Under the pieces are notes generated by a model. That model was given only the letters and a program-made list of their open reading frames with translations. It was not told where the DNA came from and did not search any database. The position numbers and the translations under genes were made by a program. A stretch of 64,000 bases of DNA from positions 434,001 through 498,000 of the forward strand of contig NZ_NJFZ01000006.1 in assembly GCF_002270355.1 (NCBI RefSeq). The letters run 5' to 3'. The DNA comes from Flectobacillus sp. BAB-3569. GTDB lineage: Bacteria > Bacteroidota > Bacteroidia > Cytophagales > Spirosomataceae. Position 1 is the first letter of the stretch. Each line of letters opens with the position of its first letter. Shown one piece after another: positions 2,128 to 7,029 of this stretch.

Positions 2128-2172
2128 AAAAAATTACTAGTTCAAGACTTAGTCTTGAACTAGTAATTTTTT
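2128..2172 (+). terminator. dnaX terminator, R5-type palindrome
   Basis: A 21-bp perfect stem (2128-2148 with 2152-2172) with a 3-nt TTA loop begins 10 bp after the dnaX stop and ends in a T run. Its core CTAGTTCAAGAC / GTCTTGAACTAG recurs at 5204-5289 and 8376-8426. Confidence 0.85.
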
Positions 2173-2406
2173 TAAACAGTTTAGAAACTGAAACAAACGA
2201 TAGTCCGATACCTAGTATCGGACTATACAATTTTTTAAAAGATAAGAAACTGAATAGCGCTACAATACAAATTGATTATACTCTTCTGATGATAAGTCTT
2301 TTTAATAACTTCCTTTTATTTCTATTTGTACCGTTCTAATATTACCTACTAAAAACAACCACCATTTCATTCCTAATTTCCTATTCTTTCTTCTTTTTTG
2401 AAAAAA

Positions 2407-2442
2407 AACTAATCAAATAGTTGTTTAACTAAAATTTTAGTT
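2407..2442. promoter_or_regulatory. Candidate double operator for the BlaI-type repressor
   Basis: AACTAAAATTTTAGTT at 2427-2442 is a perfect 16-bp palindrome. A second AACTA-n6-TAGTT site lies at 2407-2422, with centres 20 bp apart, about two helical turns. The same pattern occurs at 5136-5151 and 5566-5581 upstream of tonB. Repetition at both ends of one gene module, next to a BlaI-family gene, suggests autoregulation. Binding is inferred. Confidence 0.6.
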
Positions 2443-2624
2443 TTAACTTCAACTCATTAAAACATGAGTACTCAAACAACAGGTATCTAATTATAAGTCA
2501 TAAAGCAAAAAGAAAATATCTTTTGGCAGGCGGGTATCAGCTATGAGCCTTTGGTGGCTTTATCTCAATTTGCTCGTTTCCAGAATGCTAAATTGATTTT
2601 GCATACAACTTATAAACTACAATT

Positions 2625-2999
2625 ATGCAAGAAATAGACAAAGAGTTAACTCGTGCCGAAGAGCAGATTATGCAGGTGCTTTGGCAAATCGAAAAAGGCT
2701 TTGTAAAAGATATTCTAGATTATCTACCAGAGCCAAAACCTGCTTATAATACCGTCTCAACGATTGTTAGAATTCTTCAGGAAAAAGGCTTTGTGAGCCA
2801 TAAGGCCTATGGCAAGTCACATGAGTATTTTCCGGTGGTGAGCAAAGAACAATACAGCACCTTTGCAACCGAAAAATTGGTTGAGGGCTATTTCGAAAAT
2901 TCTTTCTCAAGTTTATTTTCTTTCTTTTCTAAAAAAGGAAAAATAGACGTAAAAGAAGCCGACGAAATTTTGAACTTAATCAATAGTATGAAGAAATAG
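2625..2999 (+). CDS. BlaI/MecI/CopY family transcriptional repressor
   Basis: This 124-residue winged-helix protein has the family pattern: ELTRAEEQIMQVLWQIEKG, then an HTH around AYNTVSTIVRILQEKGFV (about residues 42-60), then a C-terminal dimerisation helix. Family members repress target genes until a partner M56 (BlaR1/MecR1) sensor protease inactivates them. Such a partner is encoded two genes downstream. Two palindromes at 2407-2442 precede the gene and probably bind its product. An 82-bp gap with a 9-bp inverted repeat (3024-3032 with 3054-3062) separates it from the exbD-like gene. The signal sensed is unknown; a beta-lactam role should not be assumed. Confidence 0.92.
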   Translation: MQEIDKELTRAEEQIMQVLWQIEKGFVKDILDYLPEPKPAYNTVSTIVRILQEKGFVSHKAYGKSHEYFPVVSKEQYSTFATEKLVEGYFENSFSSLFSFFSKKGKIDVKEADEILNLINSMKK

Positions 3000-3081
3000 G
3001 AGTTGAGATTATCATAATTCAAGGGTTTCGACATTTGAGCCTCCAGCAAGATAGTCGAAACCTGATAACCAAAACATCGCT

Positions 3082-3597
3082 ATGGCTGAAATTTCTACAT
3101 CCGACAAAGGGGGCTCGCGCCGCTCCCGACAATCTACCCGTGTCGATATGACACCGATGGTTGACCTAGGTTTTTTGTTGATTACCTTTTTTATGTTGAC
3201 TACTACCTTATTGAAACCTGTTACCATGCAGTTGAGTATGCCTGATAAAACGACAGATAAAGGGTCGGATATTCGAGAAAGCGAAACTTTAACGGTGATT
3301 TTGGACAAAGAAAATAAGGTATATTATTACCAAGGTATCCCAACAGATCCTAATGTAATCCTTAAAACAACTAATTTTTCAGACAAAGGAATCCGTCAAA
3401 TATTATTTAATTACAAAACTAAAATTGGAAAAAACTTCACGGTAGTGATTAAGGCAACCGACCAAGCTCATTATCGAAACATGGTAGATTTGTTAGACGA
3501 ACTGGCTATTACCAATAATAAGCAATATGCCATCGTTAATACATTGACAACCAACGAACAGAATTTATTATCGCTTCAATCTCGACCATCAATTTAA
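3082..3597 (+). CDS. ExbD/TolR family biopolymer transport protein
   Basis: ExbD/TolR proteins are inner-membrane partners of ExbB/TolQ that couple proton-motive force to TonB or TolA. A basic N-terminus leads into VDMTPMVDLGFLL (residues 21-33). This is the start of the single membrane helix and includes the conserved channel aspartate, D28. The rest (about 50-171) is periplasmic. Length is somewhat above a typical ExbD. It lies 12 bp before the M56-TonB gene, which argues for co-transcription. No exbB/tolQ gene is in the window, so the motor subunit must come from elsewhere. Its position between a BlaI repressor and an M56 protease is unusual. Confidence 0.92.
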   Translation: MAEISTSDKGGSRRSRQSTRVDMTPMVDLGFLLITFFMLTTTLLKPVTMQLSMPDKTTDKGSDIRESETLTVILDKENKVYYYQGIPTDPNVILKTTNFSDKGIRQILFNYKTKIGKNFTVVIKATDQAHYRNMVDLLDELAITNNKQYAIVNTLTTNEQNLLSLQSRPSI

Positions 3598-3609
3598 CAT
3601 TAACTGCGT

Positions 3610-4941
3610 ATGAACTGGCTGCACTATTTACTCCAAGTGAATCTGTATCTGATTCTATTTTATGGATTTTATCATATTGTCTTGCGTAAAGAGACTTTCT
3701 TTTATCTCAACAGAGCTTATTTGTTGGCAACCTCTGCTTTGGCGTTTTTTATCCCAATGCTGCAGTTTACTTGGGTGCGTGAGCAATTAGTGAGTGATAG
3801 TGTGTATCATACTATGAAATATATCTACGATCCACAAATGTATTATACCCCAACCGAGAGTTTTGTACAACAGGGCTGGACTTGGGGAGATATGATTGCT
3901 GTCGTATACATAACTGGCGTTCTTATTGGTATTGGTCGAATGGGACTTCAAATGGCTTATTTGGGTAATTTACTCCGTGGGAAATCACAGAAGAAGAATA
4001 TGAATAAAAGTGCATTTTCCTTTTTCAATTTCTTGTTTGTGAGTAAAGATATGCCTATGCGTGATGTGATTATGCGCCATGAGCAAGTACATATTCGTCA
4101 GTTACATTCGGCAGATATTATGTTGTTTGAGCTTTTGGCAATATTTAATTGGTTCAACCCCGTTATTTATTTATACAAAAAAGCAGTTCGGTATATCCAT
4201 GAGTTTATTGCTGATGAAATCACAAGTCAATGGGAGGAATCTAAGGAGGAATATGCGATGCTGCTGTTTCACGAGCAATTTGGTGTGCAAACCATACCGC
4301 TAACCAATAACTTTTTTAATGACTCTATGCTAAAACAACGTATTCAGATGCTGATGAAGGACCGTTCTGAAGACGATGTTCAGTGGAAATATCTATTAGT
4401 TTTACCTTTGTTGGGAGCTATGCTGATTTTGGCATCATCTAATTTGAGAGGTTCAGAAATGGAACAACGTCTCAATGTAAAATGGAGAGCCATTGTAGAA
4501 AAAGGAGGGCAGGCTGTTGTACCAAGTAAATCTGGGCGACAAGTATTGGCCGAGTCAGGAATCAGTATTTCTAGTGCGACGATTATCAGTCCTGCTTTAG
4601 CCGAAGAACTACAAATGGAAGCCGACTCTATTATGAATGGCGTTGACCATCAGCCAGAGTTTAATGGGGGTATGCCTGCTTTTGTGGAATACTTACGTGC
4701 CAATTTGAAGTATCCCGAAGAAGCTCAAAAGGCAAATATGGAAGGGAAGGTGTATATCCAATTTGTGGTAAACAAAGATGGCTCAGCTGAAGATTTTAAA
4801 GTGCTAAAGTCGGCTGGAGAACCCCTTGATAATGAAGCTTTAAGGGTATTGAGGTCTGTTCCAAAATGGGTGCCAGGCACACATCAGGACAAATTAGTAA
4901 GATGTACTTTCGTCGTCCCTATTTCATTCAAAAAAGCATAA
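3610..4941 (+). CDS. M56 (BlaR1-like) metallopeptidase fused to TonB C-terminal domain
   Basis: The N-terminal half is an integral-membrane M56 protease with helices near 5-23, 38-54 and 95-115. The zinc motif is HEQVH at 157-161, followed by HEFIADE at 197-203, which holds the third ligand region. A further membrane segment (about 258-276) leads to an external linker and a TonB C-terminal domain (about 345-443). That domain normally contacts TonB boxes of outer-membrane receptors. BlaR1-type proteins cleave themselves and BlaI on sensing a ligand. Here the usual penicillin-binding sensor is replaced by a TonB domain, so the signal may come from outer-membrane transport. That link is inferred. 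Spacing of 12 bp after the exbD-like gene supports an operon. Confidence 0.92.
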   Translation: MNWLHYLLQVNLYLILFYGFYHIVLRKETFFYLNRAYLLATSALAFFIPMLQFTWVREQLVSDSVYHTMKYIYDPQMYYTPTESFVQQGWTWGDMIAVVYITGVLIGIGRMGLQMAYLGNLLRGKSQKKNMNKSAFSFFNFLFVSKDMPMRDVIMRHEQVHIRQLHSADIMLFELLAIFNWFNPVIYLYKKAVRYIHEFIADEITSQWEESKEEYAMLLFHEQFGVQTIPLTNNFFNDSMLKQRIQMLMKDRSEDDVQWKYLLVLPLLGAMLILASSNLRGSEMEQRLNVKWRAIVEKGGQAVVPSKSGRQVLAESGISISSATIISPALAEELQMEADSIMNGVDHQPEFNGGMPAFVEYLRANLKYPEEAQKANMEGKVYIQFVVNKDGSAEDFKVLKSAGEPLDNEALRVLRSVPKWVPGTHQDKLVRCTFVVPISFKKA

Positions 4942-5135
4942 ACATAGTAAGTTGTTTTACACCAATTCCAATAGCAATCAGCATTGAGCTTTCGGCTTTC
5001 AGTAAAAAAATAAGTATATATCAGCTATTACCTAATATTATTAGCTGATATATCCGAAAGCTGATAGCTCATACCTGATAGCCAATACTGAGTCCAACTT
5101 CCTACCTCTCTTGAGGTATTTTTTTACTAAACAAT

Positions 5136-5151
5136 AACTAAAAAAATAGTT
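5136..5151. promoter_or_regulatory. Candidate BlaI-type operator, upstream copy
   Basis: AACTAAAAAAATAGTT matches the AACTA-n6-TAGTT pattern found before the blaI-like gene. Its left flank (CTTGAGGTATTTTTTTACTA, ACAAT) resembles that of the site at 5566, so the two look like duplicated regulatory blocks. Confidence 0.5.
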
Positions 5152-5203
5152 CTACTGTTGAAGCGGCTACACCATACAGACAATGTGTGTAAATGACCAA
5201 TAA

Positions 5204-5289
5204 CTAGTTCGAGACTTTATCTCGGACTAGCTATTGCTTCAGTTTTCAAACTGTTTAAAAAATGAGTCCAGTACAAAGTCTTGAACTAG
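5204..5289. repeat. R5 composite palindrome
   Basis: The block starts with CTAGTTCGAGAC and ends with GTCTTGAACTAG, with internal CTCGGACTAG and CAGTTTTCAAACTG hairpins. Related copies are at 2128-2190 and 8376-8426. Confidence 0.65.
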
Positions 5290-5382
5290 GCATTTCGAAT
5301 AAAGGCATTTTTCATATTCTTAAAATCAGAAATCTGTAATAGTTGGGAAAGTACTAATTCTACATTAGTACTGGACGAAGGT

Positions 5383-5441
5383 TTAGCATTTTTTGATGTA
5401 GTGGCAACTCTTGCAGTTGCCACTACATCAAAAAATGCTAA
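5383..5441. repeat. 27-bp perfect inverted repeat
   Basis: Arms 5383-5409 and 5415-5441 are perfectly complementary around a 5-nt loop. The arms contain TTTTTTGATGTAGTGGCAAC. The stem has A and T runs at its base like a bidirectional terminator, but it is far from either gene end, so its role is uncertain. Confidence 0.85.
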
Positions 5442-5565
5442 TGATAAGAATTCTTTTGAACAAAAGAAAATCCTTCATACAACCCTAATTCTACATTCAC
5501 AATTCAATCATTCATAATTCGCCATTACCCCAACCTCATCTGAGGTAATTTTTTTCAATACAATA

Positions 5566-5581
5566 ACTAAAAATTTAGTTT
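5566..5581. promoter_or_regulatory. Candidate BlaI-type operator of tonB
   Basis: AACTAAAAATTTAGTT lies 26 bp upstream of the tonB start. It differs at one central position from the perfect palindrome at 2427-2442, suggesting tonB belongs to the same regulon. Confidence 0.6.
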
Positions 5582-5607
5582 TAAATTCTTTTAAACTTCT
5601 CAATATC

Positions 5608-6444
5608 ATGAACAGTAACTCATCAAATCAACAGCACGAGACCTTAGATGACATTATCTTCGAAGGTCGTAATAAGCTCTATGGCGCTTATTTTCTAAGA
5701 CAAGAGTACAAACAAATTGTTAAAAGAGCCACTTTGATAGGCGTAGGGGCATTTGGATTGGCTTTATCGACTCCTTTTATTTGGGCCTCACAGAACTCAC
5801 GAGATAAACGTGAGGTAGAAATTACCCTACAAGATGTAAAACTACCACCTGCGGAGGAAAAGAAAATAGAATTACCAGAGCCACCCAAACCTGAAACACC
5901 CGTTGAGCCAGTAAAACAAATTAAGTATCTAGCTCCTGAGATAGTAACCGATGAAAGAGAAATTGAATTGCCTCCAACGCAAGAAGAGTTAGCTGAGAGT
6001 AAAGCAGTGATTGGTACTGAAAATGTGGACGGAGCCGAAATCGAAATACCTCCAGTTGACCCTGACCTTGCCAATACTAAGCCTGCCATAGAAGCGCCAG
6101 TGCACGTCGAAAAAACTGAGGAATCGATTTTTACGACAGTTGAAAAAATGCCAGAATATAAGGGTGGTATTCGAGCTTTAGGAGAGTATCTCAATAAAAA
6201 TTTGAAGTTTCCGTCACAGGCGCAACGAGCAGGTGTAGGAGGAAAAGTGTTTGTATCATTTGTCGTAATGGGAGATGGAAGTATTTCGCAATTGTCTGTA
6301 TCAAAAGGAATTGGGTTTGGATGTGACGAAGAAGCACTAAGAGTGGTGTCGAAAATGCCTAACTGGATTCCTGGAAAACAGTCGGGAAGACCTGTCTCGG
6401 TTCGCTTTACCTTACCAATTACTTTTCAGATTATGGAGGAATAG
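5608..6444 (+). CDS. tonB: Energy transducer TonB
   Basis: TonB spans the periplasm and passes energy from ExbB/ExbD to outer-membrane transporters. The N-terminus has the Bacteroidota-type motif FEGRNKLYGAYFLRQEY (about 18-34), then a membrane helix at about 42-60. A Pro/Glu-rich spacer runs from 75 to 170. The C-terminal domain (about 185-278) includes GGKVFVSFVVMGDGS and ends in LPITFQI. It resembles the TonB domain of the M56 fusion upstream, so the window holds two TonB C-terminal domains. The shared operator suggests co-regulation with the blaI-exbD-m56 genes despite the 666-bp gap. Confidence 0.95.
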   Translation: MNSNSSNQQHETLDDIIFEGRNKLYGAYFLRQEYKQIVKRATLIGVGAFGLALSTPFIWASQNSRDKREVEITLQDVKLPPAEEKKIELPEPPKPETPVEPVKQIKYLAPEIVTDEREIELPPTQEELAESKAVIGTENVDGAEIEIPPVDPDLANTKPAIEAPVHVEKTEESIFTTVEKMPEYKGGIRALGEYLNKNLKFPSQAQRAGVGGKVFVSFVVMGDGSISQLSVSKGIGFGCDEEALRVVSKMPNWIPGKQSGRPVSVRFTLPITFQIMEE

Positions 6445-6720: not shown

Positions 6721-7029
6721 ATGGCAATTACAAAACAGTATTTGAAATCAAAACCAGTATGTAAAGTAACATTTGCAGTTCCTGCTGACGTAGCAAACGG
6801 TGCAAAAGCAGTGAACGTGGTAGGTGAGTTCAATAATTGGGATGCCTCGGCTACAGCCTTGAAAAAACAAAAAGATGGTACTTTTAAAGGTACGCTTGAA
6901 TTAGAAGCTGGAAAAGAATTTCAATTCCGTTATTTATTTGATAGCGCTATTTGGGCAAACGAAACAGAAGCTGATAAGTTTGTTCCAAACGGTATCACTT
7001 CTGACGAGAATTCTGTAGTTGTATTGTAA
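6721..7029 (+). CDS. Stand-alone isoamylase early-set / CBM48-like domain protein
   Basis: This 102-residue protein consists almost entirely of one early-set beta-sandwich of the glycogen-binding CBM48/AMPK-beta type. The clearest signature is VNVVGEFNNWDASATALKK (about 33-51), followed by FKGTLELEAGKEFQFRYLFD. No signal peptide is visible, so it is probably cytoplasmic. In larger enzymes this domain binds alpha-glucans; alone, its partner is unknown. It is monocistronic, preceded by an A+T-rich promoter region and followed by a symmetrical hairpin at 7032-7068. Confidence 0.88.
   Translation: MAITKQYLKSKPVCKVTFAVPADVANGAKAVNVVGEFNNWDASATALKKQKDGTFKGTLELEAGKEFQFRYLFDSAIWANETEADKFVPNGITSDENSVVVL

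Follow-up and report, generated by a model that had tools for sequence, protein, structure and literature searches.

A BlaI–M56 module with a TonB domain as putative sensor, a candidate regulator of TonB and ExbD supply in Flectobacillus

The closest described relatives of the system considered here are the BlaR1–BlaI and MecR1–MecI pairs of Staphylococcus and Bacillus. Our locus lies in a 64,000-nucleotide stretch of Flectobacillus sp. BAB-3569 (contig NZ_NJFZ01000006.1, positions 434,001 to 498,000; hereafter the window), part of a 6.6-Mb draft genome (G000, contig C110), and consists of blaI, exbD, a gene for an M56–TonB fusion and tonB, all on the forward strand and with dnaX upstream. With the known pairs it has in common a BlaI-family repressor, an M56 gluzincin with four transmembrane (TM) helices and a re-entrant segment, a predicted cytoplasmic active site and extracytoplasmic C-terminal sensor, a P1′ Phe in both the autocleavage loop and the repressor, and putative palindromic operators that overlap the promoter driving the operon itself. 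It differs from them in its putative sensor, a TonB C-terminal domain, in its operator, AACTA-N6-TAGTT, and in its gram-negative host. The targets found here also differ, being tonB, exbD, a barrel receptor gene and a tetratricopeptide repeat (TPR) gene, and not blaZ or mecA, the genes for a beta-lactamase and PBP2a. We propose that this module is a repurposed proteolytic switch of the BlaI–BlaR1 type, which probably sets the supply of TonB and ExbD.

Operators of the module and their promoter context

Analysis of the window identified four exact copies of the palindrome AACTA-N6-TAGTT, every one within the module (Table 1), against an expectation of 0.125 from first-order Markov simulations. 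Two of them form a tandem pair before blaI. The first base of this pair, position 2407, is where the original prediction of the module, made from the letters of the DNA alone, had set its start, without mention of the pair itself. Across the whole genome there are 19 exact sites, and only one other exact tandem with the 20-bp period, at C57:8808/8828, which falls between exbD2 and tonB in the main operon (exbB-exbD1-exbD2-tonB) of contig C57. Six of the 19 sites belong to the module or to the main tonB, and three more are plausible (at the TPR gene, a receptor gene and the gene of an exported protein on contig C15); several of the remainder lie within coding sequences or beside unrelated genes and look like background. 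Chance occurrence of the operators was rejected by means of the simulations, reversed-pattern controls and a downstream control.

Alignment of 68 tandem sites at blaI loci on their gene side revealed a box in fixed register after operator 2, reading TAnnTT(T/C)G. The box begins two bases after the operator with T (0.81) and A (0.87), followed three and four bases on by T (0.85) and T (0.91). In flavobacteria, the housekeeping sigma factor has TAnnTTTG as its -7 consensus (PMC9723704). Because the box follows operator 2 in register, operator 2 would occupy the promoter spacer and operator 1 the -33 region. Repression through promoter occlusion is the natural reading of this overlap.

Table 1. 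Features of the module, in window coordinates
Feature	Position	Strand	Details
Operator 1 of tandem, AACTAATCAAATAGTT	2407..2422	.	Overlaps inferred -33 region of blaI promoter; conserved before blaI in relatives
Operator 2 of tandem, AACTAAAATTTTAGTT	2427..2442	.	20 bp downstream of operator 1
Putative -7 box, TAACTTCA	2444..2451	+	blaI promoter, fixed register after operator 2
BlaI/MecI/CopY-family repressor	2625..2999	+	124 aa; PF03965, E 8.5e-29
ExbD/TolR-family protein	3082..3597	+	171 aa; PF02472, E 4e-19
M56–TonB fusion	3610..4941	+	443 aa; PF05569, E 2e-10; PF03544, E 9e-19
HEQVH zinc motif	4078..4092	+	Residues 157-161; His157, Glu158 and His161 invariant in 25 homologues
E-x-x-x-D gluzincin motif	4201..4215	+	Residues 198-202; BlaR1 equivalent E242xxxD (PMC9834060)
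Invariant Phe235	4312..4314	+	Counterpart of BlaR1 Phe284, P1′ of autocleavage loop; Leu231 at P4
TonB C-terminal domain	4702..4932	+	Residues 365-441
Single operator, AACTAAAAAAATAGTT	5136..5151	.	In 666-bp gap after M56–TonB gene
Single operator, AACTAAAAATTTAGTT	5565..5580	.	27 bp before tonB start
TAAATTCT	5582..5589	.	Module tonB, same -7 register after single operator
TonB	5608..6444	+	278 aa; PF03544, E 2.7e-17

All four genes scored above their own Pfam cut-offs, and the matches and coordinates confirm the predicted order of blaI, exbD, M56–TonB and tonB with no adjacent ExbB. The two MotA/ExbB matches of the genome are on other contigs, C57 and C48, the ExbB-family match on C57 being that of the main operon. 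In BlaI, Penicillinase_R (PF03965) covers residues 8–120 at 100.7 bits, against a cut-off of 22.6. The module TonB has one N-terminal TM helix, a Pro/Glu-rich linker and a TonB_C domain. Intergenic gaps are 82, 12 and 666 bp, for which reason the first three genes resemble one transcription unit and tonB a second.

The intergenic DNA holds further repeats. Dispersed REP-like palindromes (TAGTTCAAGACTTAGTCTTGAACTA and variants) occur at window positions 2128–2240 and 5199–5295, with a similar copy upstream of the blaI on contig C24. A perfect 27-bp inverted repeat with a 5-bp loop lies between the M56–TonB gene and tonB (5383–5441). Directly downstream of tonB, a 102-residue protein with a CBM48/AMPK-type glycogen-binding domain is encoded at 6721–7029.

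The M56–TonB fusion and the BlaI repressor

The fusion comprises a BlaR1-like membrane protease (residues 1 to ~280), a periplasmic linker and a TonB_C domain (residues ~346–443). By hydropathy it has four TM helices and a segment that looks re-entrant, with a long tail at the C-terminus. The AlphaFold model, with a mean predicted local distance difference test (pLDDT) score of 76.9, was matched over residues 3–240 by BlaR1 cryo-EM structures at Z 14–16, the best being 8exs (Z 16.2, 212 residues, root-mean-square deviation 4.1). Residues 346–443 of the model matched TonB C-terminal domains, among them the one in the FoxA–TonB complex; the highest Z was 10.9, over 88 residues. A penicillin sensor was rejected, as the Pfam scan of the fusion found no C-terminal penicillin-binding domain and gave only TonB_C there. 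The score against the NCBIfam model blaR1_generic was 18.7, where the cut-off is 400. As modelled, a TonB domain takes the topological place of the penicillin sensor.

BlaR1 carries H201ExxH, E242xxxD, Tyr261 and Arg294′; its self-cleavage falls between Ser283 and Phe284, and the P4 residue is Leu (PMC9834060). Across 25 homologues of the fusion, His157, Glu158, His161, Glu198, Asp202, Tyr215, Phe235 and Arg244 were invariant. The HEQVH motif is thus intact, as had been predicted, and a pseudo-enzyme was rejected because the catalytic motifs are invariant. Phe235 precedes the conserved Arg by nine residues, and with Leu231 at P4 this closely matches the autocleavage loop of BlaR1, in an alignment that rests on spacing and identity and not on the structure model.

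It could be argued that the fusion serves chiefly as a TonB variant that transduces energy together with ExbD, in which the protease does maintenance, for example the clipping of TonB or ExbD, and has no link to BlaI. Its last TM helix, linker and TonB_C domain do resemble TonB, and exbD lies just upstream. However, the canonical N-terminal TonB helix is missing from the fusion, which has four TM helices and a re-entrant segment instead of the single helix for ExbB–ExbD coupling. The invariant residues of the protease and cleavage loop, together with the tight linkage of blaI and M56 genes throughout the phylum, are moreover traits of a BlaR1 system. We therefore regard a TonB variant of this kind as very improbable.

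M56 proteins with related C-terminal domains occur elsewhere. Across the phylum, M56–TonB proteins carry one to three copies of TonB_C. A second M56 protease of the same genome (C20:262.9–264.3 kb; L023, 4406–5770), which has a blaI of its own alongside, carries at its C-terminus a Plug domain (PF07715, E 2.9e-5) and not TonB_C, and a protein of G030 (L065, 2725–4659) combines M56, TonB_C and Plug.

The BlaI of the module matches MecI structures. Its Phe101 is invariant and aligns with MecI Phe102, the P1′ residue of the site that BlaR1 cuts in Staphylococcus aureus BlaI. The protein is 97% and 91% identical to its counterparts in G003 and G004, for which the fusion reaches only 59% and 53%; such conservation fits a repressor held by many operators. 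Three further BlaI-family genes in the genome (L021, L022 and L023) have no AACTA-N6-TAGTT upstream. Each has a dyad of its own, those listed being TCTACA-TT-TGTAGA (contig C24), CTACGAA-N3-TTCGTAG and CTACGAAAATTTTCGTAG (contig C20), and CTACGAAATATTCGTAG, and attribution of the operator to another BlaI of this genome was rejected on that account. Elsewhere, paralogous BlaIs can use ACTA-N6-TAGT (G015), so that across the family the motif is not exclusive to one orthologue.

Conservation of the module and a putative regulon

The genome search called for by the original prediction found the module order in genomes or contigs of seven further relatives, although in G013 the contig ends before tonB. 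The same order was found in named loci of Flectobacillus longus, Arcicella sp. and Pseudarcicella hirudinis, which may share species with some of the relatives counted; the F. longus locus has a BlaI identical to that of the window, and its genes stand in the same order. The module is thus not unique to this strain, and a strain-specific oddity was rejected. In the same-genus genome G004, a SIMPL/DUF541 gene stands between the M56–TonB gene and tonB (L059, 5277–5987).

Named Bacteroidota loci, chosen by BlaI similarity, are mutually related and do not give independent counts. Among 80 of these, the M56–TonB gene directly follows blaI, or blaI and exbD, in 75. An exact AACTA-N6-TAGTT was present no more than 260 nt upstream of blaI in 55 of the 79 with enough upstream DNA, while shuffles gave a mean of 0.06 and a maximum of 1, and the downstream control at these loci gave 0. 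Allowing up to two mismatches in the 20 fixed bases, the tandem was detected in 37 of 59 relatives, and the reversed-pattern control once each in two. In the phylum sample, 31 of 296 genomes had the exact tandem and none a control match. The doublet was immediately upstream of a blaI–M56 pair in 25 of the 28 loci read from this search; at the other three, blaI was one small gene off, a permease-like gene was present, or the context was another one.

Operator and regulator also go together at the main tonB. A tandem between exbD2 and this gene was found in ten genomes (G000–G004, G008, G013, G031, G036 and G023), each of them having the module, either with or without its exbD. It was absent from the other relatives examined, in which exbD2 and tonB are mostly tightly spaced. 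In a tree of ExbB, ExbD1 and ExbD2, the ten belong to a single clade, within which G015 and G033 are nested, though with internal branch supports of 43 to 100 near these two their exact placement is not firm. Neither G015 nor G033 has the main-tonB operator, an M56–TonB match or this BlaI (the best is about 42% identical), which suggests that operator and regulator were lost together. This co-loss counts as one event, not two.

In G000 the main tonB is interrupted by the end of C57 and seems to be split over the ends of C57 and C45, so its full sequence was taken from G002, of the same genus. Module ExbD is 63% identical to ExbD2 of the main operon and module TonB 47% identical to the canonical-operon TonB of G002. 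From these values a duplication of exbD and tonB is likely, and the module exbD is an apparent duplicate of exbD2. The likely duplication would suit a plain autoregulated BlaI–M56 pair, with the tonB operators as non-regulatory remnants of a duplicated exbD2-operator-tonB cassette, as would the finding that nearly all exact tandem sites in the phylum sample are at blaI–M56 pairs only. At the main tonB, however, the spacers vary among genomes while all four half-sites are kept in the ten, the site is gone from the two nested genomes without the module, and the unrelated TPR and receptor genes also bear it. Remnants of this sort consequently seem quite improbable to us.

On the reading that we prefer, the operators are regulatory, and they were also found at genes other than tonB. 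The TPR protein, with a signal-like N-terminus, is encoded in only 6 of 39 relatives. The doublet precedes its gene in G000, G001, G003 and G008, is present at the matching position in G002, and in G023 the module itself contains the gene, between the M56–TonB gene and tonB. In G000 the TPR gene is split over two frames (C138:156224–157464, L134), by assembly error or a recent frameshift; it is intact in G001, G002 and G003. A gene for an outer-membrane barrel (CarboxypepD_reg/OMP_b-brl_3) has the site in G000, G001, G003, G028 and G023, sometimes degenerate and up to 380 bp upstream, and G002 holds the same doublet, at a locus judged by the doublet alone. A stand-alone exbD in G022 is likewise preceded by the operator. 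Taken together, the comparisons of sequence leave the operator regulon well supported. A 249-residue exported protein at C15:227685 (L001, L250) has a single site 183 bp upstream, conserved in G001 and G002; since it had no Pfam match and a single operator, it was left outside the regulon proper.

In G030 and G018 the same tandem operator is also present before genes for MacB/FtsX-like ABC permeases, and in G182 before a lookalike known by its N-terminus only (L142, L147, L263); among these MacB-like proteins, the Pfam scan covered that of G030 only. These genes bring in a sensor of envelope stress or the cell wall, whose TonB domain would read peptidoglycan, a Tol/Pal-like partner or membrane damage, with TonB and ExbD as part of a general envelope response. 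The resemblance of the TonB_C model to TolA domain III (Z 7.4) points the same way, and BlaR1 itself responds to cell-wall antibiotics (PMC9834060). Yet the recurrent identifiable targets in the clade of the window are TonB, ExbD, the barrel and the TPR protein, not cell-wall genes, and the Plug domain of other M56 proteins, a receptor domain, directs attention to the TonB–receptor interface. An envelope-stress sensor is on balance unlikely, though less so than the alternatives above.

A proposed switch and its relation to known systems

For a switch that sets TonB and ExbD supply, the following scheme is proposed. BlaI dimers would bind AACTA-N6-TAGTT, as a tandem at the blaI and main tonB promoters and as a single site before the module tonB, blocking the -33/-7 promoter and repressing both tonB genes along with their own operon. 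In part of the clade BlaI would also repress the genes of the TonB-receptor-like barrel and the exported TPR protein. The M56–TonB protein would be placed in the inner membrane with the zinc protease on the cytoplasmic side and the TonB domain on the periplasmic side, at the position of the penicillin sensor in BlaR1. The signal would most likely be an excess of TonB boxes, on loaded outer-membrane receptors, over free TonB. Engagement of the TonB domain would draw the autocleavage loop out of the active site, BlaI would then be cut before Phe101, and more TonB and ExbD would be made. The module would thereby act as a homeostat, in which the sensor competes with TonB for boxes and scarcity of TonB leads to cutting of BlaI until TonB wins again.

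Derepression through BlaI cleavage is likely. Engagement of TonB boxes is favoured as the signal for the TonB domain, and sensing at the TonB–receptor interface draws support from the Plug domain carried by other M56 proteins. The original prediction had claimed that a protease with a TonB sensor tunes the supply of TonB and ExbD. Support for this is partial, and comes from the operators at blaI and at both tonB genes, that of the module and the unlinked main one, from the co-loss of operator and module, the promoter overlap and the retention of protease and cleavage-site residues; what we infer is that this BlaI binds and is cleaved, what serves as the signal, and that the logic is homeostatic.

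Several observations weigh against the scheme. The model of the M56 protease has low confidence at the autocleavage loop, with pLDDT under 50 at residues 224–235, and the cleavage site of this BlaI has Phe at P1, compared with Asn in MecI and BlaI. Control of tonB may be confined to part of the window's own family, because elsewhere in the phylum sample most exact tandem sites are only at blaI–M56 pairs. Permease targets of the MacB type in three lineages suggest a broader envelope role. Finally, the site could have been carried along when an exbD2-operator-tonB cassette was duplicated, with no selection for its placement.

A wider form of the proposal can be put forward only tentatively, and we would not give it even chances. 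Throughout the Bacteroidota, M56 proteins with one to three TonB_C domains, some with Plug, might form a family of transenvelope sensors that read the TonB–receptor interface and adjust the supply of TonB, ExbD and chosen receptors. TonB boxes unserved by TonB would pull or occupy the sensor, and BlaI would be cleaved.

Other described systems share parts of this design. The BlaI–BlaR1 pair of Mycobacterium tuberculosis resembles the module in joining a BlaI to an M56 protease without a penicillin-binding sensor (PMC9834060). Signalling by FecA–FecR–FecI links TonB-dependent receptors to transcription across the envelope, with proteolysis in the pathway (PMC9249621). Systems of the Fec type work through a signalling domain at the receptor N-terminus, together with an anti-sigma factor and an extracytoplasmic function (ECF) sigma factor; among the open reading frames of the module there was no ECF sigma factor, FecR anti-sigma factor or receptor signalling domain. 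The copper repressors CopY and TcrY are of the same Pfam family as BlaI, and the weak NCBIfam match to them was far below the cut-off. To our knowledge these are metal-sensing and have no M56 partner, and the M. tuberculosis pair has neither a TonB domain nor a TonB regulon.

Open-licence full texts yielded no published account of a BlaI–M56–TonB system, of its operator or of tonB being controlled by it, though a subscription paper could exist. The component families and the logic of BlaR1 are already known; it is their combination as BlaI–M56–TonB for which no account was found. Bacteroidota can encode dozens of TonB-dependent receptors, and as far as we know it is not understood, least of all in this phylum, how a small TonB pool is matched to the many outer-membrane receptors that compete for it. 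The module offers a concrete candidate for such a regulator, with repressor, protease, sensor domain, operator and targets all named, and AACTA-N6-TAGTT is the first operator offered for many unstudied blaI–M56 pairs. Compared with the systems that sense beta-lactams, it would present the BlaR1 scaffold as a general device for transenvelope signalling in which the sensor domain has been exchanged.

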